Shown: in pieces, positions 44,496 through 59,182 of the stretch
Layout of the letters: each line of letters starts with the position of its first letter
How positions within the stretch are numbered: the stretch's first letter is position 1
Assembly (NCBI RefSeq): GCF_007827365.1
Contig: NZ_VISI01000002.1
Coordinates: 2,423,001-2,487,000 of the forward strand
Direction of reading: 5' to 3'
DNA: 64,000 nt
Source: Olleya sp. Hel_I_94
GTDB lineage: Bacteria > Bacteroidota > Bacteroidia > Flavobacteriales > Flavobacteriaceae
The notes under the pieces: generated by a model
What the model saw: only the letters and a program-made list of their open reading frames with translations
What the model was told of the DNA's origin: nothing
The model's database searches: none
Made by a program: the position numbers and the translations under genes

Positions 44496-47400
44496 ATGTT
44501 AAAAACATTCATTGAAAGACCAGTGCTTTCAACAGTAATCTCTATTATCATAGTTTTACTAGGAGTTATTAGTATAACTAGCTTACCTATAGAGGAATAT
44601 CCAGATATTGCACCTCCAACCATTAAAGTAGTTGCAAATTATACAGGAGCAAATGCCGAAACCGTTTTAGAGAGTGTTATAATACCTATCGAAGAGCAAA
44701 TTAATGGTGTAGAAGGGATGACATACATTACATCTACAGCATCTAACACAGGTGCAGCCGAAATTACCGTGTATTTTGATCAAGAAATTGATGCAGATAT
44801 TGCAGCTGTAAACGTACAAAACCGTGTGTCTAGAGCAACACCTTTATTACCACAAGAGGTAATACAAACAGGTATTACCACTCAAAAGCAAGAAACAAGT
44901 GTATTAATGTTTATCTCAATGTATTCTGAGAGTGAGGATTACGATGCTACTTTTATTCAGAATTACTTAAAAATAAACGTTATTCCAGCAATGCAACGTA
45001 TTAGCGGTGTTGGAGATGTTAGTGTATTCTCGCAAAAAGATTACGCGATGCGTATTTGGTTAAACCCAGAAAAATTAGCGTCTTATAATTTAATACCTTC
45101 AGATATTTCTGCAGCTTTAGCTGAACAAAACTTAGAAGCAGCAGCTGGTTCGTTAGGAGAAAATAATGGTGAATCATTTTCATACACTTTAACTTATAGT
45201 GGTCGTTTTAAAGACGAAGCACAATACAGTGATATTGTTATAAAAGCCTTAGGAAACGGAGAGTTTTTACGTTTAAAAGATGTGGCAACTATAGAGTTGG
45301 ATGCACAATCTTACGGATCAAACGCCATGAGTAAAGGTAATCCTGCTGTTTTTATGGGGATTTTCCAAACTAAAGGATCTAATGCACAAGAAATTATTGA
45401 AAACATAAAAGTAACCTTAGAGCAAGTAAAAGCAGACCTTCCAGAAGGTTTAGATGTATTTGTTCCTTACGATACTAGTTTATTTTTAAATGCCTCTATA
45501 GATAAAGTAATTACTACTTTGTTAGAAGCCTTTTTACTGGTATTCTTGGTAGTATTTATATTCTTACAAGATTTCCGTTCTACATTAATTCCTGCAATTG
45601 CAGTACCAGTATCTATTATTGGTACCTTCTTTTTCTTGAATGTATTTGGGTATTCTATTAACTTATTAACGCTATTTGCCTTAGTACTTGCTATTGGTAT
45701 TGTAGTAGATGATGCCATAGTTGTTGTAGAAGCTGTCCATGCTAAAATGGATGAAGGCGAGCACAACCCGAAAAAAGCAACCATTACTGCTATGAGTGAA
45801 ATTTCTGGTGCCATTATTTCTATTACATTAGTTATGGCAGCAGTATTTATTCCTGTAACCTTTGTAACTGGACCAACAGGAGTGTTTTATGAGCAATTTG
45901 GTGTAACTTTAATTATTGCCATTTTAATTTCGGCAGTAAATGCCTTAACCTTAAGTCCAGCATTATGTGCTTTATTATTAAAAGAACATAAAGAGGACGA
46001 AGAGTTAAAAGGAAAAGGTCCATTAAAGCGTTTTTATACGTTATTTAATCGTGGATTTAATGCAACCATTGATAAGTATGGAAAATCGCTGCAGTTTTTA
46101 TACAAAAAGAAATTTATTTCAGTATTACTATTAATCATTGCAGTTGTCGGTATTTATTGGGCTTCAACTACAACTCCAACAGGTTTTGTACCAAACGAAG
46201 ATAGAGGAATTGTTTTTGCTAATATAGAATTACCACCAGGAGCATCTTTAGATAGAACAGATGCTGTAGCAAGAAAACTTTACGCTCAAATTGAAAACAT
46301 TGATGGTATTGAAGCTGTAAACTTTATTAAAGGTAGAAGTTTAATAAGTGGTGCAGGTAGTAACTTTGGTTTTGGTATTATAAAACTTAAAAACTGGGAT
46401 GAACGTGAAGATGCATCACTTTCCGCGGAAGCGATAACAGGAAAATTATTTGGTGTAGCAGCAGGAATACCTGATGCCAATATCATATTTTTCTCTCCTC
46501 CAAGTATACGTGGTTTTGGTAACTCAGCTGGTTTTGAAATTAACTTATTAGATAAGTTTGGTGGTGAGTTTACAGATTTAGATAAAGCCAATAAAGATTT
46601 TTCTATGGCTTTAATGAGTCATCCAGAAATCAAATATGCAACATCATCTTTTAGTACAAGTTATCCACAATATGAAATGGAAGTTAATGTACCATTAGCT
46701 AAAGAAAAGGGTGTGTCTGTAAGTAGTATCTTTTCAACTTTACAAGGGTATATTGGTGGAATTTATGCTTCAGATTTCTCAAGATTCGGAAAACAATTTA
46801 GAGTATACATTCAGGCTTTACCAGAAGACAGAGCAGATGAAAACGCTTTAAATAGCATGTATGTACGTACAGATTCTGGCGAGATGACGCCAATTACACA
46901 GTTTGTAACCTTAGAGCGTGTGTATGGACCACAATCGGTAACGCGTTTCAACTTATTTAATTCTACCATGATTTCTGGTGCTACAAACGAAGGTTTTAGT
47001 ACAGGTGATGCTATTAGAGTTATTGAAGAAGAAGTTGCAAAATTACCTAGTAATTATACAGTGGCATATTCTGGATTAACACGTGAAGAGGTTAATGCAG
47101 GAAACCAAACAACGTTTATATTTATACTAAGTATCTTATTTGTATACTTTTTATTAAGTGCACAATATGAAAGTTACTTATTACCATTTGCGGTCATATT
47201 TTCATTACCATTTGGTGTTTTTGGAGCTTATATTACAACTAAGTTTTTAGGATTAGAAAATAACATATATTTCCAAATTGCTTTAATCATGCTTATTGGT
47301 CTATTGGCCAAAAATGCCATACTTATTGTCGAGTTTGCTTTGGCCAGACGAAAAAATGGCGAGAGTATTGTAGATGCAGCAATCCATGGAGCCAAATCAC

Positions 47401-47633
47401 GTTTACGTCCAATTTTAATGACTTCGTTTGCTTTTATTTTAGGATTGATGCCATTAGCATTAGCAACAGGTGTTGGATCTGAAGGAAACAACTCGATTGG
47501 ATCTGGAGCAGCAGGAGGAATGTTAATTGGTACTATTCTAGGAGTATTTGTTATTCCAATCTTATTTATATTATTCCAATGGTTACAAGAAAAAGTTTCG
47601 GGTAAACCAGCAGTACAAACTATTGAAGACTAA
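44496..47633 (+). CDS. RND efflux pump, HAE1/AcrB type
   Basis: 1045 residues, standard RND length. N-terminus MLKTFIERPVLSTVISIIIV, porter domains with PIEEYPDIAPP, and proton-relay helix 4 AIGIVVDDAIVVVEAV with the two Asp residues. Later AKNAILIVEFA in helix 10-11 gives the Lys. Twelve helices. Exports hydrophobic compounds using the proton gradient; substrates unknown. The adjacent OmpM/TolC-like gene starts 4 bp after the stop. Confidence 0.96.
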   Translation: MLKTFIERPVLSTVISIIIVLLGVISITSLPIEEYPDIAPPTIKVVANYTGANAETVLESVIIPIEEQINGVEGMTYITSTASNTGAAEITVYFDQEIDADIAAVNVQNRVSRATPLLPQEVIQTGITTQKQETSVLMFISMYSESEDYDATFIQNYLKINVIPAMQRISGVGDVSVFSQKDYAMRIWLNPEKLASYNLIPSDISAALAEQNLEAAAGSLGENNGESFSYTLTYSGRFKDEAQYSDIVIKALGNGEFLRLKDVATIELDAQSYGSNAMSKGNPAVFMGIFQTKGSNAQEIIENIKVTLEQVKADLPEGLDVFVPYDTSLFLNASIDKVITTLLEAFLLVFLVVFIFLQDFRSTLIPAIAVPVSIIGTFFFLNVFGYSINLLTLFALVLAIGIVVDDAIVVVEAVHAKMDEGEHNPKKATITAMSEISGAIISITLVMAAVFIPVTFVTGPTGVFYEQFGVTLIIAILISAVNALTLSPALCALLLKEHKEDEELKGKGPLKRFYTLFNRGFNATIDKYGKSLQFLYKKKFISVLLLIIAVVGIYWASTTTPTGFVPNEDRGIVFANIELPPGASLDRTDAVARKLYAQIENIDGIEAVNFIKGRSLISGAGSNFGFGIIKLKNWDEREDASLSAEAITGKLFGVAAGIPDANIIFFSPPSIRGFGNSAGFEINLLDKFGGEFTDLDKANKDFSMALMSHPEIKYATSSFSTSYPQYEMEVNVPLAKEKGVSVSSIFSTLQGYIGGIYASDFSRFGKQFRVYIQALPEDRADENALNSMYVRTDSGEMTPITQFVTLERVYGPQSVTRFNLFNSTMISGATNEGFSTGDAIRVIEEEVAKLPSNYTVAYSGLTREEVNAGNQTTFIFILSILFVYFLLSAQYESYLLPFAVIFSLPFGVFGAYITTKFLGLENNIYFQIALIMLIGLLAKNAILIVEFALARRKNGESIVDAAIHGAKSRLRPILMTSFAFILGLMPLALATGVGSEGNNSIGSGAAGGMLIGTILGVFVIPILFILFQWLQEKVSGKPAVQTIED
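46418..46433. repeat. CTTTCGCGGAAG-like palindrome 4
   Basis: ACTTTCCGCGGAAGCG, inside the RND pump gene, encoding SLSAEA. Confidence 0.6.
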
Positions 47634-47637
47634 AACA

Positions 47638-49056
47638 ATGAAATCAATATTAAAACATAGAAACTTTAGTAAAGGCGCATTAATACTAGTTGTTGCATTA
47701 ACACTACAAAGTTGTTTTGTAGCTCAAGATTATGTGAGACCAGACTTAGATGCTGAAACGCAAGCACTTTACAGAACTGATAATTTACCAACAGATAGCG
47801 TATCTATTGCAGATGTATCCTGGAAAAATTTATTTACAGACCAATACCTTCAAAAATATATAGAAGAAGGTCTTCAAAATAATATGGATGTGCGTATTGC
47901 TTTGCAGCAAATTTTAGCTGCTGAAGCTTATGCAAAACAAGGTAAAGCTGGTTATTTACCATCAGTAAGTGTTGGCGCAAATGCAACGCATCAAGAGTTG
48001 TCAGAAAACAGTCAATTTGGAGCTTTATTTAGTGGTGGAATAGATACTTATGATATTACAGCTAACTTATCTTGGGAAGCAGATATTTGGGGGAAAATTA
48101 GAAGTAATAAACGTGCAACACAAGCTGCTTACTTACAAAGTGTCGCAGGACATCAAGCAGTAAAAACGCAATTAATTTCTAGTATTGCTAATACGTACTA
48201 TAATTTATTGGCATTAGATGCGCAACTAGAAGTGACTAAACAAACTATTTTAACTAGAGAAAGTGGTGTAACAACCATTAAAGCTTTAAAGGACGCTGGA
48301 CAAGTAACACAAGTTGCGGTAGACCAAAATATAGCACAATATAACAGTGCCAAAGCGTTACAGGTAGATATTGAAGTTGCTATTTTTAAAACTGAAAATA
48401 CGCTAAGTATTTTATTAGGAAAATCACCTCAAACTTTTGAAAGAAGTAGTTTAGACATTCAAAATATAGATCAAGATATAGTATTAGGTGTTCCTGCAAC
48501 ATTATTAAGTAACAGACCTGATGTTATGGCTGCAGAGTATGGCTTAATAAATTCTTTTGAGTTAAGTAATGTTGCCAAAAGTAACTTATATCCTTCTTTA
48601 ACATTAACCGCTTCTGGTGGTTTAGAAAGCTTAGATGTAGATAATTTAATTAATGCCAATTCGATTTTTGCAAATATTATAGGCGGAATTACGCAACCTA
48701 TTTTTAATCAACGAAAGTTAAAAACTCAAAGAGAAGTTGCTTTTGCACAACAAGAACAAGCATTACTTAGATTTAAGCAAACGTTGTTAGTGGCAGGAAG
48801 TGAAGTATCTAATGCGTTATATACTTATAAAGCTGAAACTAAAAAGTTTGAGTTTAGAAAAAATGAAGTGGAAGCTTTACGTACAGCCGAAGCTAATTCT
48901 AACGAGTTACTTAAAAATGGTTATGCTAACTACTTAGACTTATTAACAGCTAGAGAAAGCGCTTTAAATGCGGAACTTAATATTATTAACAGCCAATTGC
49001 AGCAACTAGTGTCTATCGTAGATTTATACGAAGCACTTGGTGGTGGATGGAGATAA
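47638..49056 (+). CDS. Outer-membrane efflux protein (TolC/OprM type)
   Basis: 472 residues from the ATG at 47638. An earlier in-frame ATG at 47548 lies inside the pump gene and gives no signal peptide, so it is rejected. Lipoprotein signal with lipobox TLQS|C, as in OprM-type channels. Two OEP repeats (about 70-255 and 265-470) with coiled-coil helices; motifs LSWEADIWGKIRSNKRA and NRPDVMAAEYGL are standard. Forms the trimeric outer-membrane duct of the pump. Confidence 0.93.
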   Translation: MKSILKHRNFSKGALILVVALTLQSCFVAQDYVRPDLDAETQALYRTDNLPTDSVSIADVSWKNLFTDQYLQKYIEEGLQNNMDVRIALQQILAAEAYAKQGKAGYLPSVSVGANATHQELSENSQFGALFSGGIDTYDITANLSWEADIWGKIRSNKRATQAAYLQSVAGHQAVKTQLISSIANTYYNLLALDAQLEVTKQTILTRESGVTTIKALKDAGQVTQVAVDQNIAQYNSAKALQVDIEVAIFKTENTLSILLGKSPQTFERSSLDIQNIDQDIVLGVPATLLSNRPDVMAAEYGLINSFELSNVAKSNLYPSLTLTASGGLESLDVDNLINANSIFANIIGGITQPIFNQRKLKTQREVAFAQQEQALLRFKQTLLVAGSEVSNALYTYKAETKKFEFRKNEVEALRTAEANSNELLKNGYANYLDLLTARESALNAELNIINSQLQQLVSIVDLYEALGGGWR

Positions 49057-49074
49057 TATTTTAATCTAAATGAA

Positions 49075-49677
49075 ATGATAACCAAAGCTCAATTGCTACA
49101 ATGTGCTATTACTAAGTTTACTAGATTTGGTAGTAAGCACGTTACTTTAGACGATTTGGCAACTGAGCTTGGTATATCTAAAAAAACAATTTATTCTTTT
49201 TTTAAAAACAAAGAAGACTTAGTAACATCAAGTCTAGAAAGTTTATTAAACGAGTATAAAAACGATATAAATGGGATTGTTAATAGCAATGGTAAAGATC
49301 CTGTTTTGTGTGTTATTTTAATTTACCGTAGAGGGTTTGAGTATTTAAAATACTTTAAACCCTCTTTTATTTTTGGGTTACAAAAATACTACCCTAAAGC
49401 AAGTTTGTTATTTGATAATTTCTCTGAAGAATTAGCACATAAAACCATACAAGATTTACTTATTGAAGCACAATTAAAAGGAGATATAAGACCCGAAATT
49501 AATATTGAATTAATAGTAAAAATCTATTTTTTTAGAATTGACAATCTTGTTTTTAAAGAAAATAATTTATTTGAAATTTATACAAAAGACGTGTTGTTTA
49601 GGCATTTGGTGTTGTATAATTTAAAAGGGATTGTAAATTATAGTTACACTAATAGATATTTAGAACTTGAATTTTAA
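49075..49677 (+). CDS. TetR/AcrR-family regulator
   Basis: 200 residues. N-terminal TetR helix-turn-helix (TKFTRFGSKHVTLDDLATEL, GISKKTIYSFFKNKEDLV); the ligand-binding C-terminal part is hydrophobic and not assignable. It lies 18 bp after the TolC-like gene and precedes a terminator, so it closes the efflux operon. Two regulators of different families at both ends of one operon suggest more than one inducing signal or autoregulation. Confidence 0.9.
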   Translation: MITKAQLLQCAITKFTRFGSKHVTLDDLATELGISKKTIYSFFKNKEDLVTSSLESLLNEYKNDINGIVNSNGKDPVLCVILIYRRGFEYLKYFKPSFIFGLQKYYPKASLLFDNFSEELAHKTIQDLLIEAQLKGDIRPEINIELIVKIYFFRIDNLVFKENNLFEIYTKDVLFRHLVLYNLKGIVNYSYTNRYLELEF

Positions 49678-49706: not shown

Positions 49707-49736
49707 GCCTTAACGATAATCTGTTAAGGCATTTTG
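49707..49736. terminator. Terminator between TetR and HmuY genes
   Basis: GCCTTAAC / GTTAAGGC perfect 8-bp stem with an 8-nt loop and ATTTTGT tail. Separates two convergent genes and may serve both. Confidence 0.75.
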
Positions 49737-49763: not shown

Positions 49764-50867
49764 TTATTGTAGTAAGCTATAAACAAACTCAGGATAACCA
49801 CGTTCTCCAGCTTCATTAAAAAGTGCTAAAAACTTAAGTTTATATAAGTTTCCATCTGTGTCTCTAATAATATAAAACACATTGTCTTTTAGTGATGGAG
49901 ATGAACTTGGTCCACCACTGTTTCTCCAACTACTTCCAATACTTCTTTGATCGTCAGAAAATTGTGTGTTGTCTACATCTGCAAGCGTAAAATTATCATA
50001 GGATAACTCAGATTGTATTTCCGTATCTATTACATACGCTTTAGTACTTTGTTTAGTGTTTGTAACTACAAAGTCAGAATAAAAGTATGGACCATAACTA
50101 TCTGTGCCTATAAATACTTCGTCTGTAAACGTAGTAAAGTTTAAATCCCATGCTTCTTTTGCTGGTTCAATTACTATTTCACTAGTAGCATCAAAGCTAA
50201 AAAACGTATAGTTATAAGAGGTGTTTTTAGAGATGGTTACTTCGTGGTGAGTCGTATCATCTAAATCTGCATATTGTAAGATATATTTTGTACCATCTTG
50301 CAATACTCTAACTTTTTTCCAACCTCTCTCGTCATCCGTAGTGTCAATACTTCCTGTGGTAGGAGTTTCTGTACCTACAGTATAACCTAAGTTTACTAGG
50401 TATACTGGATTATCTGCATCTGTTGCTGTAATAGCCGAAAATGCAGTACCATTTAATGCACCATTTGGCGCATCAACATATTGCATGCTAGCTTGGTTAT
50501 AAGTATTGGTTTTAACCAAAGGTTGTAAGTCTAGTACTTCTTGATTTGTAGAGTTTACCGCATCAATATCTGTAGTGGTTAATTGTGCTGCAGCCATTGC
50601 TATAGATCCATTTATGACCACTCTAAATTCTGTTCCTGAATAAAATCCTAAATCCCAAGAGTCACGTTGTACGCTTGTGGTTGTATTTGTACTTAAGTCT
50701 ACATATACTTGGTTTTGCTGATTTGGACCACCAACTGTTGGCGCTACCGCTGCTCCATCAATAACAACTGTTATCGGTTGTGTTGGTGTATTATCGTCGT
50801 CGCTACTACAGTTAGTAAATACTAATGCAGTCATGCAAAGTGCTAGAGTAAATAGTTTGTTTTTCAT
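49764..50867 (-). CDS. hmuY: HmuY family heme-binding lipoprotein
   Basis: 367 residues. Lipobox VFTN|C (Cys20). HmuY pattern: RDSWDLGFYSGTEFRVVING (about 68-87) and later KEAWDLNFTTFTDEVFIG. HmuY proteins bind heme outside the cell and hand it to the HmuR-type TonB receptor; the heme-ligating residues differ between species (two His in Porphyromonas, Met in Tannerella and Prevotella) and I cannot assign them here. It is 11 bp downstream of the TonB receptor gene, in a probable operon. Confidence 0.9.
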   Translation of the reverse strand: MKNKLFTLALCMTALVFTNCSSDDDNTPTQPITVVIDGAAVAPTVGGPNQQNQVYVDLSTNTTTSVQRDSWDLGFYSGTEFRVVINGSIAMAAAQLTTTDIDAVNSTNQEVLDLQPLVKTNTYNQASMQYVDAPNGALNGTAFSAITATDADNPVYLVNLGYTVGTETPTTGSIDTTDDERGWKKVRVLQDGTKYILQYADLDDTTHHEVTISKNTSYNYTFFSFDATSEIVIEPAKEAWDLNFTTFTDEVFIGTDSYGPYFYSDFVVTNTKQSTKAYVIDTEIQSELSYDNFTLADVDNTQFSDDQRSIGSSWRNSGGPSSSPSLKDNVFYIIRDTDGNLYKLKFLALFNEAGERGYPEFVYSLLQ

Positions 50868-50878
50868 TGTATTTGTTT

Positions 50879-53020
50879 TTAAAAATTTAAATTATATAAT
50901 AGTTTTAGGTAATATGATCTTCCGTAACCTAGTAATAGGCTACTATTATTTGTACTGTGTGTTCCTGTTGTATTTGCGCCATTAATAGCAACGCTAGTGA
51001 CATCCAATAGGTTTCTACCACCAATTGTAGCTTGTAGTTTGTTATTAAAAAAAGATTTTTTTACTGAGGCATCCATCCAACTATAAGCATCAGTATTATA
51101 TTTTATAAAGGTGTTGTTTCCACTATCATCTGTACCTTCTGCAATGTAGTTTTGTTGTTTTCCGTTATATTTTAAAAGGACGGTTAAAGCAGTGTCCCAT
51201 TTTTTAATTAAATAACTAGCACTTGTATTAAGTTGCAATGCGTATAAAAAGTCATTTTCTGCATTAACTTCATCATTCATTACTCTAGACACGCCTTGTA
51301 AAGTTGCACCTAAATTAAAAGTCCAATGCTCATGTTTAATAGTGTTTTCTGTGGTTATTCCAAATAGTTTATAGGCATCAATATTGATGTATTGGTATTG
51401 AAGTGGAGAAGGATTCACTAAGGCTAGTTCAATCTTGTCTTTAAGTGCTATGTAGCTTAATTTTAAATTGTTAGTTAAGGATGTGGTTTTAAACCAACTT
51501 CGTTTTTTAATATTTAAAAAAGCTGAAAACCCTTCTTCTGGACTTAGATTTTCGTTACCTCTAACATCGTGGTTAGAGTCTACAAAATAGTAGTACAACT
51601 CTTCAAAATTTGGAGTTCGGTAAGATGATCCAATGCTTGCTCTTAGTTCGTAACCTTTATTTAATAAATACCTAGTGCTAAACGATCCTAATATTTGAGA
51701 TTTAAATTTAGAATTGTATTCATATCGCAATCCTGGACGTAAGGATAATTTACTAGATAATTTAAATTCTGAAGAGGAGAATACCGCATAGTTATTCTGT
51801 TTTTGCGTTTGATCTTGTTGCGTGATTTCTCCTGAAGCTTGTGTGTCAAACCCTTTTATAAATTTAGCTTCATAACCTAATTGATAATTGTAAAAGTCTT
51901 TTTTGGATAGGTTGTTAATAGTTCCTTTGGAGAAAAGTACATTACTGGATTGGTAGGTTTGATCAGTTTGATTTGTCTTGTCCTTTGTGATAATAAAATA
52001 GTTAAACTGATTTAAATCACGCTTTTGTGTTTGATAAGATAAGGACGCATTATAATTAGCTCCAGACGTTTGTGAGCCACTAATGTTTAAGTTATTTACA
52101 AAACGATTTGTAGTAAATATTTTATCTGTTGCAGATGGATTACTGGTTTGTGTTTGCACATTTATATTGGCTCTAACAGCAGCATCATAGAAATTTAAAT
52201 CTTCATTAAAAAACTCGAATTTGTAAAACAATCTAAATTTATCTGAATTATAATGTAAGCTTGCTTTGGTAGTTAATTGGGTTTTTGGTAACCAGTCATA
52301 CCCTCTTAACCCATCATTGTTATAGTAGTTTTGTCCGTGTCTATTGTTGTAGAATCCTGCAAACTGATTTCGGTTAAACCCAATTTTTGAAGACCATTTT
52401 TCGTTAAAATTATGGCCAATATTTATGCCTTGTATATGTCTGCCTTCATCAAATAAGGCATATTCATTACTAACGGTTTCTTCTTGTATAAAGCTTTGGA
52501 TTTCCCAGTCATGGTTAACCGTTTTTTTAGTAATTATATTAATAACACCAGAGACTGCATTGGCACCATATTCGACTCCCATTGCACCTTCAACGATCTC
52601 TATGCGCTCGATATCGTCTAAATTTATTTGAGTTAAATCAATATTATTACCAACGCCATTATCGCTTACTAAAGGTATATTATCAACAAGAATATTAAAG
52701 TATTGCGCATCTAATCCAAAAAATGATATGGTTGATCGTCCAGTTTGGGCACTTGGAATAATGTTTAGATTAAGATTAAAATTAAGTAGGTCTGCTAAAT
52801 TATTAGCAGCTTGTTGGTCTATTTTTTTTCGGTCAATTATAATAACATTATGTACGGATTTTTTAATGGATTGTGGATTATATTGACCTGTAATAACTAC
52901 TTCTTCAAGCTTTTGGACCAGTGTGGAGTCATTAGCTGTAATTTCTTTGTCTTAAGCAGTTGTAATTCCGATTAAAAAAAAAGTAAAATAAACCGTTAAA
53001 TATTTTTTATTTAGAATCAT
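50879..53020 (-). pseudogene. TonB-dependent receptor (HmuR-like) interrupted by TAA at codon 23
   Basis: From the ATG at 53020 the frame encodes a 22-residue signal peptide (MILNKKYLTVYFTFFLIGITTA), then a TAA at 52954-52952, then the same frame stays open for about 690 codons. The stop sits where a Gln (CAA) would normally follow cleavage at TTA|Q, so a single C-to-T change explains it. Downstream in the same frame: TonB-box region, plug domain (EEVVITGQYNPQSIKKSV, RKKIDQQAANNLADLLNF, LVDNIPLVSDNGVGNNIDL, IERIEIVEGAMGVEYGANAV) and a 22-strand barrel-like C-terminus (LLGYGRSYYLKLLYNLNF). The first in-frame ATG after the stop is at 52582, inside the plug domain, so a shorter functional receptor is improbable. 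Alternative explanations: sequencing error or stop readthrough. The partner HmuY is intact. Confidence 0.85.
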
Positions 53021-53038
53021 TCTTGATTAAATTTGCTG

Positions 53039-53046
53039 CAAATATA
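53039..53046 (-). promoter_or_regulatory. -7 element TATATTTG for the receptor/HmuY operon
   Basis: Perfect match on the minus strand, 18 bp before the receptor ATG. A perfect inverted repeat AGAAT-C-ATTCT (53013-53023) covers the start codon, and TCTAAAT half-sites occur nearby; a Fur-type operator is possible but not shown. Confidence 0.55.
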
Positions 53047-53112
53047 AACGTTATTTTAATTCAGTCTAAATAAGAACAACATTTTTTCAAATAAATAAAC
53101 AACCCATTAAAT

Positions 53113-54021
53113 ATGAAAACTTTAACAACTTTATCACTATTATTTTTGACCTTTACAGCCACAATTAATGCACAAAACAAAAAAAAGCAAGACCAAGATG
53201 CTATTAAAAATATGTGTGGTTGTTATGAAGTCACCTTTAATTTTGCAGAGACTTTTAACTATAGTCAAGATTCATTATATAAGCCATCAGAAACTAAAGT
53301 TGATAAAGGTTTAGAGTGGGCACAATTAGTAGAGGATAGCGACAATAAAATTGTGATTCAGCATTTGTTACAAGTTGGTAGTCCAGAGTCTCCATATATT
53401 GTAAAGCACTGGAGACAAGATTGGTTATTTGAAAACACAGATTTTTATATGTACAATGGTGACAATAAGTGGACCTATGTGTCTAAGCCTAAAAAAGAAG
53501 TTAAAAATCAATGGACACAAAAAGTATATCAGGTAGATGATAGTCCACGTTATGAAGGCTCTGCAACTTGGGTTCATGTAGATGGGAAAAGTTTTTGGGA
53601 AAACATTACAACAGCACCTTTGCCAAGAAGAGAGTACACTAAAAGAAGTGATTATAATATTACTTTAAGAGGGAATAGACATCAAACAACAGATACTGGT
53701 TGGGTACACGACCAAGACAATGAAAAAGTGCTAAGAGAAGACGGAAAAGAGGACGTGATATTAGCTAAAGAAAAAGGTTATAATACGTACGTAAAAGTTG
53801 AGGATAGTAAATGTCAAGCTGCTCAAGATTGGTGGAAAACTAATCAAATAAAATGGTCTAAAGTCCGTACAAAATGGGAATCTGTTTTTGCAAGACATCA
53901 AGATCTAGCTTTACAAGCTAAGGTAGATAATAAAGTATTATATAAATATTTGTTTGATGACGAAAACTACTCTAAATCAGAACAAATAAATCCAATAATC
54001 GAAAGTTTTATAATAAAGTAA
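53113..54021 (+). CDS. DUF6607 family exported protein
   Basis: 302 residues. Signal peptide 1-20 (ending INAQ). Conserved-looking start CGCYEVTFNFAETFNYSQD, then ESPYIVKHWRQDWLFEN, SATWVHVDGKSFWENITTA and RREYTKRSDYNITLRGNRHQ; high content of Trp, His, Lys and Asp. This is the DUF6607 pattern, found near HmuY and DUF2271 genes in Flavobacteriia. Function unknown; periplasmic or outer-membrane by signal. It is divergent from the receptor gene (92 bp between starts) and begins the plus-strand operon. Two Cys (CGC) and His-rich segments could bind metal or heme, which is speculation. Confidence 0.8.
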   Translation: MKTLTTLSLLFLTFTATINAQNKKKQDQDAIKNMCGCYEVTFNFAETFNYSQDSLYKPSETKVDKGLEWAQLVEDSDNKIVIQHLLQVGSPESPYIVKHWRQDWLFENTDFYMYNGDNKWTYVSKPKKEVKNQWTQKVYQVDDSPRYEGSATWVHVDGKSFWENITTAPLPRREYTKRSDYNITLRGNRHQTTDTGWVHDQDNEKVLREDGKEDVILAKEKGYNTYVKVEDSKCQAAQDWWKTNQIKWSKVRTKWESVFARHQDLALQAKVDNKVLYKYLFDDENYSKSEQINPIIESFIIK

Positions 54022-54033
54022 AATAAAGTATAA

Positions 54034-55497
54034 ATGAAAAAAGTAATTACAGTTTGCCTACTATTAATTAGTATCGCAGTTAATGCGCAAGACAATGTTT
54101 TTTTAGGTAGAGGTTTTTGGGGACCATCAGTAACCATCCAAGACGTTAAATCTAAAATAGCAGAGGGTAATAATCCAGCCGAATTAAACGAAAATAATTT
54201 TGACCCAGTTGTCTATGCCATCCTGCAATCTGCACCAATCGATGTTATTAAATACATACAATCATTAGATGGTAACGATGTTAATAAATTAACGCACGAT
54301 GGTCGCACGTATATCTTTTGGGCTGCTTATATAGGCAATGATACTATAATGGAATACTTTATTAGCAAAGGTGCTAAAACAGATATTTTGGACGACCATG
54401 GTTTTACGCCTTTAAATTTTGCTGCTAATGCAGGTCAAACAAACATCAAAGTATATGAGCTTTGTTTGGCAAATGGCGCAAACTTAAAAAAAGATTTAGA
54501 CCATAATGGAGCTAATGCTTTACTATTAGCAGCTCCAACCAATATTACATTAACTAACTACTTTGTGTCTAAAGGCTTAAGTCTAAAAAGCGTAGATAGT
54601 AATGGTAACGGAATTTTTAATTATGTTGCTAAAACAGGTGATGTAGAATTGCTAAAAGGGTTAATGGAAAAAGGATTAAAAGGTACAGATCAAGCCTTTA
54701 TTTTTGCCAGTCAAGGGACTAGAGGTAAAACCAACGGGTTACCTGTTTATAGTTATTTAGAAAGTATTGGTTTAAACCCAAATACTAATTCTCCAGATGA
54801 TGTATCACCTTTACATAATGTAGCAGCAAGAAGTAATGATTTAGAGGTTTTAAATTATTTTATTGAAAAAGGAAATGATGTAAACGCTATCGATAAAAGC
54901 GGAAACACACCTTTTTTAAATGCAGTTAGTCAAAATAATATCGAAGTAATATCGATGCTTTTAAAACAGGTTAAGGATATTGATTACGCTAATAAAAAAG
55001 GAGAAACAGCTTTAATGTTAGCCATCCAAAACAACACTGCAGACGTGGTTAAATTAGTCCTGTCTAATGATGCAAAAACAGATCTTGTTGATACTTACGG
55101 AAATAATTTAGCCCATTATTTAATCCAATCTTTTAACCCAAGAAAAGAAAAAGATTTCACCACTAAATTACAGCTTTTAGAAAGTAAAGGGTTTGAGTTT
55201 ACAACGCCTCAAAAAAATGGTAACACATTATTCCATTTAGCTTTAGATAAAAATAATGTCGAATTTTTAAAACAAATTAATCAATTTGGTATCGATGTAA
55301 ATACTGCAAATAACGAAGGGTATACACCTTTACATTTAGCAGCAATGAAGGCTAAGGATAATACGCTTTTAAAGTATTTAATAGCTATTGGAGCAAATAA
55401 AAAAGCAACCACAGGTTTTGAAGAAACTGCATTTGATTTAGCATCAGAAAACGAAATTTTAAAGAACAAAAAAGTAGCATTAGACTTTTTAAAATAA
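54034..55497 (+). CDS. Exported ankyrin-repeat protein
   Basis: 487 residues. Signal peptide 1-18 (ending VNAQ) followed by an ankyrin stretch of about 10-12 repeats, best seen as DHGFTPLNFAANAGQTNIKV, NKKGETALMLAIQNNTADVV and NEGYTPLHLAAMKAKDNTLL. Ankyrin repeats mediate protein contacts; exported ones sit in the periplasm. Other bacteria have periplasmic ankyrin proteins needed for catalase activity (AnkB with KatB), which hints at heme-protein protection but is only an analogy. Located 12 bp after DUF6607 and 6 bp before DUF2271, so part of the same operon. Confidence 0.85.
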   Translation: MKKVITVCLLLISIAVNAQDNVFLGRGFWGPSVTIQDVKSKIAEGNNPAELNENNFDPVVYAILQSAPIDVIKYIQSLDGNDVNKLTHDGRTYIFWAAYIGNDTIMEYFISKGAKTDILDDHGFTPLNFAANAGQTNIKVYELCLANGANLKKDLDHNGANALLLAAPTNITLTNYFVSKGLSLKSVDSNGNGIFNYVAKTGDVELLKGLMEKGLKGTDQAFIFASQGTRGKTNGLPVYSYLESIGLNPNTNSPDDVSPLHNVAARSNDLEVLNYFIEKGNDVNAIDKSGNTPFLNAVSQNNIEVISMLLKQVKDIDYANKKGETALMLAIQNNTADVVKLVLSNDAKTDLVDTYGNNLAHYLIQSFNPRKEKDFTTKLQLLESKGFEFTTPQKNGNTLFHLALDKNNVEFLKQINQFGIDVNTANNEGYTPLHLAAMKAKDNTLLKYLIAIGANKKATTGFEETAFDLASENEILKNKKVALDFLK

Positions 55498-55503
55498 GAT
55501 ATC

Positions 55504-55989
55504 ATGAAAAACATAAAACTAATTTTTAGCATTGCTATACTTAGCATAGCCTTGTTTTCTTTTACAACAATAAACACATCTACTAAGTACAAATGCATGG
55601 TGCAAATGACCAATTATGTTGGCGAAGGAGCTTATGTAGTCATCTCGTTAATTAATCCAGATGGACACTATGAAAAAACATTATATGTTCAAGGAGATGA
55701 TGAGGAGTGGTATAATGACATCACAGAATGGTGGAAATTTCAAGGTAAAGTTAGAGCAGATATTGATGCATTAACAGGAGCTACAATTTCTGGAGGAGAA
55801 CGTGCTATAAGCGTTATTCAAATCGAAGATTCTAAAATAGATGCAGGTTACAGTATACGTTTTGAGTCAGCAGTAGAGGATCAAGAATATTACACAAAAG
55901 ATGTCCAATTTTTGCTAACCTCAGAGAGTGTAAAAAGCAAAACAGAAGGCTCAGGATTTATACGTTACGTACGTTTAATGCCAAATTAA
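55504..55989 (+). CDS. DUF2271 periplasmic protein with flavinylation-like motif
   Basis: 161 residues. Signal peptide about 1-24. DUF2271 core: KYKCMVQMTNYVGEGAYVVI, LINPDGHYEKTLYVQGDDEEW. Residues 88-96 read DALTGATIS, the pattern [ST]-G-A-T seen where ApbE attaches FMN covalently through phosphate to Thr in NqrC, RnfG and FMN_bind proteins; Thr94 would be the acceptor. A flavinylated electron-carrier role fits its position 10 bp before the PepSY reductase gene. DUF2271 proteins have been associated with ApbE-linked redox loci in published surveys. No apbE is in the window. The motif is seen, its modification is inferred. Confidence 0.85.
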   Translation: MKNIKLIFSIAILSIALFSFTTINTSTKYKCMVQMTNYVGEGAYVVISLINPDGHYEKTLYVQGDDEEWYNDITEWWKFQGKVRADIDALTGATISGGERAISVIQIEDSKIDAGYSIRFESAVEDQEYYTKDVQFLLTSESVKSKTEGSGFIRYVRLMPN

Positions 55990-55999
55990 ACCCATATTT

Positions 56000-58192
56000 A
56001 TGACCCTTTCTATTTGGAGATATAGTCACCTTACACTAGCTATAACCTCATTTGTATTTGTATTTCTAGCAACAATAACTGGTATTATACTTGCTTTTCA
56101 GCCAATATCAGAGCAGATGCAACCCTTTAAAATAGAAAGTGTAAATCAGTTGGATGTAGACCAAACGATAACAACGTTTAAGGATAAATATCCCGAAATT
56201 ATTAATATAGAAGTAGATGCAAATCAGTTTGTGTCTGCTTCTGTAATTACCGCAGATGGGACTTCGTTAAATGGTTATTTTAATCCAAAAACCGCTGCTT
56301 TTTTAGGTGAAAAGCCAGAGATTTCAGCCTTTTTTAAATTTACTACAAATTTTCATCGTTCGTTATTTTTAAAAGGAATAGGACGCTTTTTTGTGGGTTT
56401 AGGCTCGTTTTTACTATTCTTGATAGCAATTACAGGTTCTATTTTAATTGTTAAACGTCAAAGCGGAATTAAGCGCATTTTCGCAAAAGTGGTTAACGAG
56501 AATTTTTCCCAATATTGGCATGTGGTTTTAGGACGATTATCCTTAATTCCTATTATAATTATCACGTTAACTGGTGTGTATTTGTCACTGCTTAAATTTG
56601 ATTTAATTTCAGAAAAAAAACAAAAACACACTGTTGATTTTCAAACTACAGCTTTCGCTGAAAAGCAGCCTGATATAAATATTTTTAATACCACACGATT
56701 AACTGAAGTTGTCAATTTAGAGTTCCCTTTTTCCGAAGATGAAGAAGACTACTACATCTTAAAGTTAAAAGATAAAGAAGTCTTGGTCCATCAATATTCT
56801 GGGCAAGTTTTAAGTCAGGTAGACTATCCTATGGTTACATTTTTATCCAACCTAAGTCTAACATGGCATACAGGTAAAGGTAGTATCCTTTGGTCTATAA
56901 TATTATTGATTGCCTGTCTTAATATTTTATTTTTTATCTATTCTGGATTTAAAATGACCATTGAAAGAAGAAAAAACAAAGCATTGCCTAAAAATAAATT
57001 TACTAAGGATAAAGCTGAGGTTATTATCCTGGTAGGCTCAGAAACAGGACAGTCTTATGCTTTAGCTACAGCGTTTTATAAGGGAGTAATAGCTAATGGT
57101 ATAACGGTTTACATATCAGATTTAAATAGCTATACGACGTATAAAAACGCCAAGCAACTTGTTGTATTTACTTCCACATATGGCGAAGGTGAAGCACCTA
57201 TTAACGCTAAAAATTTTATTACGCTATTAAAAAGTGTGCCACAAGAGCAAACTATAAATTATGCAGTTGTTGGTTTTGGTTCATTAAAGTATAAAGCATA
57301 TTGTAAATATGCCCAAATGGTGGATGCTAGTTTGCAATTACATCCCAATTTTACACCTAATCTGCAATTGCAAAAAATCCATAACCAATCGCAATCTACT
57401 TTTAAAGATTGGTTACAACAATGGAATACAGTAGTTGGTACAAATGTTAGTCTAGTACTAGATAATCCAACAATAAAAACTAAAAAGCAACAAACATTTA
57501 AAGTCATAAATAAAACGTTATTAAATGTGGACAATACGTTTGTATTACAGCTAAAACCTACCAAGAAAATTAATTTTATATCTGGTGATTTGTTAGCTGT
57601 GTACCCAAAACAAGATGGAATAGAAAGGCTTTACTCGATAGGTAAAATGGACAATCAAATTGTTATAAGTGTCAAAAAACACGAGTTTGGTGTGTGTTCT
57701 ACTTACTTTAATACATTACAAAAAGAGGACGTGGTTAATGCCATAATAAAACCTAATCCTACTTTTAATCTTCCTGTAAATGCTAAACGTGTCGTGTTAA
57801 TTGCAAACGGAACAGGAATTGGTCCTTTTTTAGGAATGATTAACACGAATCCACAAATTGAAAAGCATTTATTTTGGGGTGGACGTACCAAGCAATCTTT
57901 AAGTTTATATCAAAAATATATAGATAGTGGATTACAACATAATACGCTAAGCAGTTTTAATGTCGCTTTTTCTCAAGAACAAGAAGTGAAAAATTATGTG
58001 CAAGATATTGTGGCAAAAAATGCAGCAATTATAACACAGGTTTTAGAGGATGATGGCATCATCATGATTTGTGGCTCTGTAGCAATGCAAAACAATGTCT
58101 TGGAAGTCTTAAACCATATTACCACAACTAAATTACAACTGCCTATTAGCTTTTATATAGATAATCAGGTGATAAAAACGGACTGTTATTAA
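56000..58192 (+). CDS. PepSY-transmembrane / flavodoxin / ferredoxin-reductase fusion
   Basis: 730 residues. A PepSY-type membrane part (about 1-330) with four helices (near 12-35, 125-152, 175-205, 298-318) and conserved His residues (RYSHLT, NFHRSLF, YWHVVLGR, LTWHTGKGS) suited to bind b-type hemes. Then a flavodoxin domain (about 338-480, GSETGQSYALA, TSTYGEGEAP), an FAD-binding domain (RLYSIGKM at about 537-544) and an NAD(P)H-binding domain (IANGTGIGPF, WGGRTKQS, MICGS). Equivalent to sulfite reductase flavoprotein fused to PepSY; likely sends electrons from cytosolic NAD(P)H through FAD, FMN and hemes to the periplasm. It follows DUF2271 by 10 bp. Confidence 0.9.
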   Translation: MTLSIWRYSHLTLAITSFVFVFLATITGIILAFQPISEQMQPFKIESVNQLDVDQTITTFKDKYPEIINIEVDANQFVSASVITADGTSLNGYFNPKTAAFLGEKPEISAFFKFTTNFHRSLFLKGIGRFFVGLGSFLLFLIAITGSILIVKRQSGIKRIFAKVVNENFSQYWHVVLGRLSLIPIIIITLTGVYLSLLKFDLISEKKQKHTVDFQTTAFAEKQPDINIFNTTRLTEVVNLEFPFSEDEEDYYILKLKDKEVLVHQYSGQVLSQVDYPMVTFLSNLSLTWHTGKGSILWSIILLIACLNILFFIYSGFKMTIERRKNKALPKNKFTKDKAEVIILVGSETGQSYALATAFYKGVIANGITVYISDLNSYTTYKNAKQLVVFTSTYGEGEAPINAKNFITLLKSVPQEQTINYAVVGFGSLKYKAYCKYAQMVDASLQLHPNFTPNLQLQKIHNQSQSTFKDWLQQWNTVVGTNVSLVLDNPTIKTKKQQTFKVINKTLLNVDNTFVLQLKPTKKINFISGDLLAVYPKQDGIERLYSIGKMDNQIVISVKKHEFGVCSTYFNTLQKEDVVNAIIKPNPTFNLPVNAKRVVLIANGTGIGPFLGMINTNPQIEKHLFWGGRTKQSLSLYQKYIDSGLQHNTLSSFNVAFSQEQEVKNYVQDIVAKNAAIITQVLEDDGIIMICGSVAMQNNVLEVLNHITTTKLQLPISFYIDNQVIKTDCY
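56651..56666. repeat. CTTTCGCGGAAG-like palindrome 5
   Basis: GCTTTCGCTGAAAAGC, inside the PepSY reductase gene, encoding AFAEK. Confidence 0.5.
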
Positions 58193-58210
58193 CTTGTAAA
58201 ACTTAAAATT

Positions 58211-58567
58211 ATGTGCACTAATATAGAAGCTATTTCAAAAACCTCACAAGGTGAATTAAACTACTGTAAAGGATGCAAGCAGTTTCATTTTGAGTTTAAT
58301 AATATTTATTTTGAGTTTACGCCAGAACAATTTGAGCAATTTAAAGCCTACATTTTATATGTTGAAGCAGATTATTGGGAACATAAATATGCTTGTGCAA
58401 ATGTTAAGCGTAAAATACCAATCCCAACTTTACAAGACAATTTAGTGTTAATGTTTGATAGGCAAGAAATTAAAGAGCTTAAAGTACTGGTTAGCCAAAA
58501 AAACAAGGCTGTTTTTGATACTTTACTTAATGTAGACGATATAGATTACACTTATATTGTTAACTAG
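58211..58567 (+). CDS. DUF6686 small cysteine protein
   Basis: 118 residues, soluble, no signal peptide. Short N-terminal Cys cluster: MCTN and NYCKGCKQFHFEF (Cys19, Cys22 and a nearby His), a possible metal site. Family pattern DUF6686, recurrent near heme/iron loci in Flavobacteriia. Cytosolic. It follows the PepSY reductase by 18 bp and closes the operon. Function unknown; a role in sensing or chaperoning iron or heme is a guess. Confidence 0.75.
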   Translation: MCTNIEAISKTSQGELNYCKGCKQFHFEFNNIYFEFTPEQFEQFKAYILYVEADYWEHKYACANVKRKIPIPTLQDNLVLMFDRQEIKELKVLVSQKNKAVFDTLLNVDDIDYTYIVN

Positions 58568-58632: not shown

Positions 58633-59028
58633 ATGAAAAAGGATATCCAAATACCAGTTGTTGAAAACGTATATGTTGCTATTGTTAATGAGTATAATGA
58701 CATATACAAAACACAAGACTGGAACGCTTATATTATAAATGATAAAGCGGTTGATTTAGACACGGTATTGATTGTAACTAGTGGTTTCTCGGAGGATAAA
58801 ATGACTTCTATTTTTAGAAAAAAACTAGACAAGCTACCTAAAAAAAGCTATGCTAAAATCGAGTTGATGCAAGAAGATTTATTTGCATTAAACAATCAAT
58901 TTAAGGTTACCTTTTTTGAAGGTAATACTATGTTTGACAAAACGTATACTTTTAGAAAAAACACAATTAATTTAAAGGCTTTACAACCAATACCTTTAAT
59001 GGAAGCACGTGGTGTTTTGGTTAAGTAA
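58633..59028 (+). CDS. Small cytosolic protein, unknown
   Basis: 131 residues; no signal peptide or membrane helix. Lys-rich helix (SIFRKKLDKLPKKSYAKIEL) and C-terminus LQPIPLMEARGVLVK. No family recognised. Its own promoter element precedes it; after it lies an interspersed repeat and a shared terminator. Confidence 0.7.
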   Translation: MKKDIQIPVVENVYVAIVNEYNDIYKTQDWNAYIINDKAVDLDTVLIVTSGFSEDKMTSIFRKKLDKLPKKSYAKIELMQEDLFALNNQFKVTFFEGNTMFDKTYTFRKNTINLKALQPIPLMEARGVLVK

Positions 59029-59092
59029 TATTATAAAGATTACATAATACGGTTTAAAACAAATTATGATTAGTCTTTAGCTTGGCTAATAC

Positions 59093-59182
59093 TTGCGTTA
59101 GCGATTGCAGTGTAAATCCTTTTTATGAGGCACGATTAAAAAGATTGTAACGTAAAGCGCGACCCTTGGGTAACGCCCAAAA
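59093..59182 (-). repeat. Interspersed structured repeat, copy 2
   Basis: Same ends as copy 1 at 41536-41634 but in opposite orientation: TTTTGGGCGTTACCCAAGGG...GCGCT and ATCGCTAACGCAA read on the minus strand. The interior differs in sequence but again forms a hairpin: AATCCTTTTT (59115-59124) with AAAAAGATT (59138-59146), one bulged base. Confidence 0.8.

Follow-up and report, generated by a model that had tools for sequence, protein, structure and literature searches.

A predicted haem-uptake locus of Olleya sp. Hel_I_94 with a RhuH-family haemophore gene at the head of an operon containing an ankyrin–DUF2271–reductase cassette

Related systems and layout of the locus

In Riemerella anatipestifer, the haemophore gene rhuH lies divergent from rhuR-rhuA across a promoter of 122 bp, with a Fur box located 25 bp from rhuH (PMC11967795). 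The same layout was found in a 64,000-nt stretch (the window) of the 3.56 Mb genome of the marine bacterium Olleya sp. Hel_I_94, where a DUF6607 gene opens a rightward run of five genes, and a TonB-dependent receptor gene followed by an HmuY-family gene runs leftward. With somewhat better than even confidence, it is read here as a locus for haem uptake that belongs to the Rhu/Hfp type and is under Fur control, its haemophore gene heading an operon together with an iron-release cassette, a general reductase for haem or siderophore capture.

Both loci have the haemophore gene pointing away from the genes of a TonB receptor and a haem-binding outer-membrane protein, with one Fur-box promoter for the two directions, and the haemophores have the same pocket residues. 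The available text of the Riemerella report mentions no ankyrin, DUF2271 or PepSY gene, whereas in the window the haemophore gene is the first of five in an operon and the receptor gene is interrupted. Since the published rhuH/rhuR-rhuA layout is present, the haem-capture half of the locus is a known type of system.

The flavinylation of DUF2271 and the link of PepSY proteins to iron were already described (PMC8238504). According to the available text, the PepSY-DUF2271 flavinylation systems (PMC8238504) and Caulobacter CCNA_03155-03159 (PMC11870441) have a PepSY protein beside DUF2271 and are tied to iron, some of them with an NAD-binding domain. The window differs in the lack of DUF4198 and ApbE at the locus, in a near-constant exported ankyrin protein, in a fusion resembling the diflavin cytochrome P450 reductase (CPR) and in a haemophore in the operon. 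The Bacteroides xenosiderophore system XusABC (PMC13142918) likewise combines a TonB receptor, a surface lipoprotein and a PepSY reductase, XusC, which is called the siderophore reductase of the system, and relatives of the present cassette lie behind XusB-like genes. In the accessible part of that article, no flavinylated partner of XusC is described, and no XusB-like gene was found among the genes of the window locus.

In hmuYRSTUV, which shares HmuY and the TonB receptor with the window, the HmuS de-chelatase releases iron from haem reductively and depends on NADH (PMC12583661); this is the job proposed here for the cassette, and no CobN/HmuS homologue was found in the window genome. The hfpR-hfpY genes of Flavobacterium psychrophilum encode a TonB receptor and an HmuY-like protein under iron control, within a 19 kb region that also holds iron-responsive genes for a possible transmembrane electron transfer, given in the supplement of that paper (PMC9331221). 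They differ in a DoxX gene between the receptor gene and hfpY.

The Rhu core, the iron link of PepSY-DUF2271 and Xus are thus already known. Our search of the open literature, with supplements and subscription papers outside it, returned no DUF6607 by name, no DUF2271 with ankyrin and no HmuY with ankyrin and PepSY. Within the limits of these searches, the identity of Pfam DUF6607 with RhuH, the near-constant ankyrin partner and the exchange between haem and siderophore capture are new.

A preliminary description of the window had given the gene order, the strands, the rightward five-gene run with gaps of 6–18 bp and a TGAT motif. All of these were confirmed by coordinates and Pfam, which backs the name of each of the seven genes. 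The gaps among the five rightward genes are 12, 6, 10 and 18 bp, and that between receptor and HmuY is 11 bp. HmuY, DUF2271 and DUF6607 each have one match in the genome (E <= 0.001), all three inside about 6 kb.

DUF6607 and the RhuH haemophore family

The DUF6607 gene is located at 53113..54021 (+ strand; PF20311, E 5e-99). Used alone in phmmer, its product matched 8xjc_A, the R. anatipestifer RhuH structure, with an E-value of 7e-90 over 299 residues, and a profile of 58 DUF6607 proteins matched 8xjc at E 9.9e-118. The AlphaFold model of the protein, with a mean predicted local distance difference test (pLDDT) of 93.9, was aligned to 8xjc by Foldseek with template modelling (TM) scores of 0.86/0.93 and an E-value of 8e-35. 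For RhuH, His96 was described as the haem ligand and Arg143, Tyr144, Arg170, Arg183 and Gln198 as lying at the propionates; the assignment was derived by modelling the complex, and mutation was used to test the His (PMC11967795). The numbering was transferred through the 8xjc_A alignment, and the counterparts H99, R146, Y147, R173, R186 and Q201 are invariant in 58 of 58 sequences. By sequence and model, DUF6607 is a member of the RhuH haemophore family with predicted haem binding. The preliminary description had listed it as a part of unknown role, which is ruled out by the matches in sequence, fold and pocket residues. Among the named relatives, Olleya marilimosa (L003) is the closest, its DUF6607 being 91% identical.

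On the opposite strand, the HmuY-family gene (49764..50867, −; PF14064, E 1.7e-28) encodes a haem-binding lipoprotein-like protein of the long form with 367 amino acids (aa); it is the second gene of the receptor operon and the sole HmuY match of the genome. Compared with solved structures, it gave no match at E 0.1. The receptor body with plug and barrel (PF07715, PF00593) is located at 50879..52948 (−) and comprises 689 codons and a stop. The residue between two loop boxes of the receptor, which we take to be important for haem, is a His in 32 and a Tyr in 41 of 74 rows.

The ankyrin–DUF2271–reductase cassette among relatives

The second gene of the rightward run (54034..55497, +) encodes an exported protein of 487 aa with Pfam ankyrin repeats, the near-constant partner of DUF2271. 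Precedents are HusA, described as a helical haem-binding protein (PMC11967795), and the Campylobacter ankyrin protein Cj1386, described as a carrier of haem to catalase and listed as cytoplasmic (PMC11442138), as far as the available text of both reports goes.

It is followed by the DUF2271 gene (55504..55989, +; PF10029, E 3e-40), a predicted periplasmic flavinylation substrate. Its TGAT (55774..55785, +; residues 91–94) fits the flavinylation motif [S/T]GA[S/T] taken from the available text of PMC8238504, and Thr94 is the predicted acceptor of flavin mononucleotide (FMN). The motif is also found in 44 of 72 DUF2271 open reading frames of relatives. Against solved structures, DUF2271 gave a single match, at E 0.25.

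The fourth gene (56000..58192, +) encodes a protein of 730 aa that unites PepSY_TM, Flavodoxin_1 and NAD_binding_1, a predicted membrane cytochrome fused to a diflavin reductase for FMN, flavin adenine dinucleotide (FAD) and reduced nicotinamide adenine dinucleotide phosphate (NADPH). The FMN and FAD/NADPH domains of the CPR/CysJ-type diflavin reductase fold are present. The PepSY part contains four hydrophobic segments and has H10, H119, H174 and H290 in 31 of 31 sequences, candidates for the two His pairs that bind haem in a membrane cytochrome of the FoxB/PepSY kind; its sequence matched only weak cytochrome b pieces in the PDB. FoxB was not among the matches listed in the fold search of the reductase, a list filled by the reductase part, so that the PepSY part was barely probed. 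The run ends with the small protein DUF6686 (58211..58567, +; PF20391, E 5e-47), an optional member found in 20 of the 80 near loci and 11 of the 40 DUF2271 loci described below.

Three samples were used for the analysis of the linkage: a near-relative set of 80 loci, biased since it was found by similarity to the window DUF6607; a family draw of 199 genomes with about one per genus, for which the statistics are not corrected for relatedness; and a phylum-wide draw of 198 genomes. Within 9 kb, HmuY, receptor, ankyrin and DUF2271 genes were each found in 72 of the 80 near loci and the reductase gene in 70 (in L007 it lies just past the limit and in L041 the contig ends). All seven genes stand together within 9 kb in just 19 of 80 loci, DUF6686 being optional. 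The eight near loci without the cassette retain HmuY, receptor and DUF6607. Another eight (L011, L020, L021, L029, L035, L039, L050 and L054, the last a 3.1 kb piece) lack HmuY as well as this receptor in the 9 kb range, and four of them have another TonB receptor. A DoxX-like gene adjoins a short HmuY in six of the eight cassette-free loci (L072, L074, L076, L078, L081, L082); for the short HmuY cluster, Pfam was run on one member.

In the family draw, DUF2271 was found above the cut-off in 59 and DUF6607 in 65 of 199 genomes, with both in 44. The two genes are at most 5 kb apart in 36 of these 44 genomes (Fisher odds ratio 16.6, p 8e-16, relatedness not corrected). Outside the own genome, 60 DUF2271 places were above the cut-off. 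The 40 fetched from these follow the E-value ranking as far as G234; not among them are G274, G107, G212 and G316, which lie near contig starts, and the 16 weakest, and three matches below the cut-off were dropped. Here and in the phylum-wide draw, neighbours were named by blastp to cluster members, and counts take in everything fetched for a locus, at most 20 kb. The ankyrin gene was found in 38 of the 40 loci, the reductase gene in 39, and DUF6607, HmuY and receptor together in 28, two of them incomplete as called. In relatives, the arrangement of these genes is far from random. Judged by gene order, ankyrin, DUF2271 and PepSY/reductase form a tight cassette.

The phylum-wide draw contained DUF6607 in 14 of 198 genomes. 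At the 13 loci outside the own genome, HmuY and a related receptor were near in 12, DUF2271 in one and PepSY_TM in two. L083 has a TonB receptor, PepSY_TM and DUF6607 together; in L084, the genes are those for receptor, HmuY, DUF6607, flavodoxin, a DUF6686-like protein and PepSY_TM, flavodoxin and PepSY being encoded separately. Both loci, as their sequences indicate, are independent links of PepSY_TM to DUF6607 in distant families.

DUF6607 is absent from 12 of the 40 fetched DUF2271 loci. In six of these (L134, L136, L148, L149, L151, L152), a TonB receptor of 803–860 aa, a lipoprotein-like protein of 427–478 aa, ankyrin, DUF2271 and reductase follow one another in this order. When a profile of seven such lipoprotein-like proteins was compared with the PDB at E up to 1, siderophore-binding XusB was the sole match (9hqe, E 3.8e-6); Pfam DUF4374 was below the cut-off in one and absent in three of the four members scanned. 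The XusB-like gene is found in seven of 133 relative loci, the profile having been built from those seven. L139 holds haem-type and Xus-type partners in one gene run. L061 and L066 have the same flanks, with the second TonB receptor, ankyrin, DUF2271 and reductase missing from L066, by sequence a clean presence/absence of the cassette.

The preliminary description had proposed a haem/iron locus with a path from NAD(P)H to the periplasm. This remains plausible, but haem is not the sole plausible substrate, since the cassette also occurs without DUF6607 and beside XusB-like genes. Its position behind haem or Xus-like capture genes makes it probably a general reductase of ferric cargo. Ankyrin, DUF2271 and reductase would form a unit whose common task is probably the reduction of imported ferric cargo.

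A narrower explanation, possible though clearly less favoured, is that the cassette serves only ferric siderophores or free ferric iron and stands beside haem genes since both are controlled by Fur. It would account for the TonB receptor and XusB-like lipoprotein before the cassette in six of the 12 loci without a nearby DUF6607, as well as for the others that have no such partners. It also agrees with the six cassette genomes and the one genome with a lone DUF2271 (L124) that gave no DUF6607 match, one of these seven genomes being 86% complete, and with XusC, a PepSY protein described as an iron-siderophore reductase in the available text of PMC13142918. However, the cassette follows DUF6607 in 70 of the 80 loci of the biased near-relative set and accompanies DUF6607, HmuY and receptor in the 28 loci given above, a linkage tighter than shared regulation would require.

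Iron control, predicted electron route and meaning

With the Riemerella Fur box of PMC5609570 as reference, the best match in the window is located at 53009..53027, where it overlaps the start codon of the receptor. It agrees in 16 of 19 positions, a score that shuffling of the intergenic stretch reached 6 times in 1000. A second, conserved Fur-like element, TTATTTTAATTCAGTCTAAATAA (53051..53073), is located 39 nt 5′ of the DUF6607 start; it fits the published Riemerella box in just 14 of 19 positions, a score reached at 18 window positions. Of the 80 upstream regions, one from the window and 79 from relatives (L054 is too short), 52 carry the exact core TCTAAATAA on the coding strand 10–70 nt 5′ of DUF6607, compared to a mean of 0.36 and a highest value of 3 in 200 shuffles of two-base blocks. 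This count is limited by position and strand, whereas the count of 73 of 80 on both strands is inflated by the start region of the receptor itself.

In the own genome, the element with at most one mismatch gave 16 matches at 13 positions, and the reversed control pattern 5 matches. Ten of the 13 sites were examined. Nine belong to DUF4856-imelysin-HTTM genes (two), to two TonB receptors (two each), to hemA, to a FeoB domain that begins some 250 bp further on and to this locus; no evident iron gene adjoins the tenth, C2:1746038. Fur-like boxes with 15–16 of 19 positions also precede nine of 11 cassette operons without a nearby DUF6607, the lone DUF2271 of L124 being left out; in 300 shuffles, eight of these scores were equalled no more than 3 times and one 4 times. 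The check failed at L133 (14/19; 37 of 300 shuffles) and at L136 (11/19), where the start was probably called too far upstream. The Fur-like boxes predict an iron response of the locus.

The DUF4856-imelysin-HTTM genes bearing the box in the own genome lie at C1:58271-62085. Such genes are also present in the fetched loci of L009, L016, L053, L070, L079 and L128, and they follow the cassette in L009, L016, L070 and L128.

The gene identities, the haemophore family, the conserved linkage and the Fur-like boxes are supported by the sequence; electron path, flavinylation, cargo and ankyrin role are what we infer from them. RhuH and HmuY would strip and hold haem, which the TonB receptor would carry into the periplasm. 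Electrons of NADPH would pass through FAD and FMN of the CPR-like domain to two b-haems of the PepSY membrane part, and from there to an FMN bound covalently to Thr94 of DUF2271, attached by an ApbE encoded elsewhere. Reduced DUF2271 would then reduce the ferric cargo, either haem or iron freed from haem, while the ankyrin protein may hold or position the cargo or DUF2271, and Fe(II) would enter through FeoB.

FeoB is present in the genome. No CobN/HmuS match (PF02514) and no haem oxygenase of PF01126 was found in the genome, IsdG and HugZ types and haem ABC importers not having been searched for. The PF01126 haem oxygenase and HmuS/CobN were accordingly rejected as the iron-release enzyme here, and with FeoB at hand periplasmic reduction followed by uptake of Fe(II) is the simplest reading. 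Haem itself may be reduced or de-chelated, and the role given to the ankyrin protein is a proposal. More speculatively, and with rather low confidence, the cassette could be an aerobic, flavin-based counterpart of HmuS that reduces periplasmic haem on an ankyrin solenoid, with electrons from NADPH by way of PepSY and flavinylated DUF2271, and frees iron without a classical haem oxygenase, perhaps even with no haem entering the cytoplasm (importers of haem were outside the searches), a plug-in re-used behind RhuH/HmuY and Xus-like capture.

Several observations weigh against the proposed haem-uptake locus with its iron-release cassette. The alanine of the flavinylation motif is replaced by Glu in 27 and by Ser in one of the 72 DUF2271 open reading frames of relatives (Glu in L015, L036, L045, L050 and others). 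Unlike many published PepSY-DUF2271 clusters, the locus lacks ApbE and DUF4198, and among the 133 relative loci scanned ApbE was found in a single one, directly after the reductase (L144). The ApbE of L144 speaks for the reading, as does its identification twice elsewhere in the own genome and in 40 of 40 DUF2271 genomes. One own copy stands by a DUF3570 gene (L096) and the other downstream of the FMN_bind gene of an Nqr-like run (L097); with such further clients in this genome, the presence of ApbE adds little weight. Of the features of a PepSY-DUF2271 flavinylation system, the locus has the clustering of PepSY_TM with DUF2271 and the TGAT motif, and it has no ApbE. Moreover, 21 of the 65 DUF6607 genomes have no DUF2271 above the cut-off, and seven of the 12 genomes with a DUF2271 locus lacking a nearby DUF6607 give no DUF6607 match anywhere, so that neither depends on the other. 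The receptor sequence does not single out haem either, its best PDB matches being mixed receptors.

Finally, the TonB receptor of the locus is interrupted. Both leftward genes are present as initially described, but the receptor is not intact, an in-frame stop codon (52949..52951, −) having been overlooked. It lies directly after the apparent signal peptide, whose coding part was placed at 52952..53022 (−) by frame analysis; the other 689 codons are open, and no stop is found at this place in eight relatives (L003–L010). The receptor gene is either broken in this genome or affected by a sequence error. The stop could mean that the haem arm is decaying in this genome and that only the reductase operon still matters. 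This is considered rather unlikely, since neither the remaining codons nor HmuY are interrupted, both are well conserved and one recent mutation or a sequence error explains the stop equally well. Least probable, and considered remote, is a relay for protection or repair, which would reduce haem-damaged periplasmic proteins or keep haem ferrous for cytochrome assembly: the oxidising nature of periplasmic haem and the cytoplasmic haem carrier Cj1386, as described in the available text of PMC11442138, might suggest it, but no catalase, methionine sulfoxide reductase or cytochrome-maturation gene was found among the clusters present in at least 20 of 80 loci, rarer clusters being mostly unnamed, and the link to XusB-like genes points to iron.

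Next to the locus, an RND (resistance-nodulation-division) efflux permease, an outer-membrane factor-like protein named by eye and a TetR regulator (44496-49677, +) are convergent with hmuY. A terminator-like stem on both strands (49707..49730) lies between hmuY and the TetR gene; it is weak, as 6 such sites were found in the stretch compared to 4.5 expected by shuffling. DUF6686 is followed by a 131-aa protein without a Pfam match (58633-59028, +), kept in 5 of 80 loci, and a Flavo-1 RNA (59075-59168, +; Rfam RF01705, 54.6 bits) is located downstream of the operon. A protein family of about 120 aa (cluster 16: L014:15193-15555, L061, L066, L129 and others) stands beside the cassette or haem genes in 9 of 80 and 6 of 40 loci; one member was scanned and gave no Pfam match. 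The scan for sigma-70 promoters was uninformative, with 49 found and 47.5 expected.

With these results, Pfam DUF6607 gains a function and DUF2271 a near-constant ankyrin partner, and a complete predicted electron route stands inside a haemophore operon. That relatives keep the predicted relay next to genes for the uptake of either haem or siderophores suggests an iron-release cassette that can be re-used. Since it also stands behind siderophore-type genes, the question of its substrate can be tested directly.

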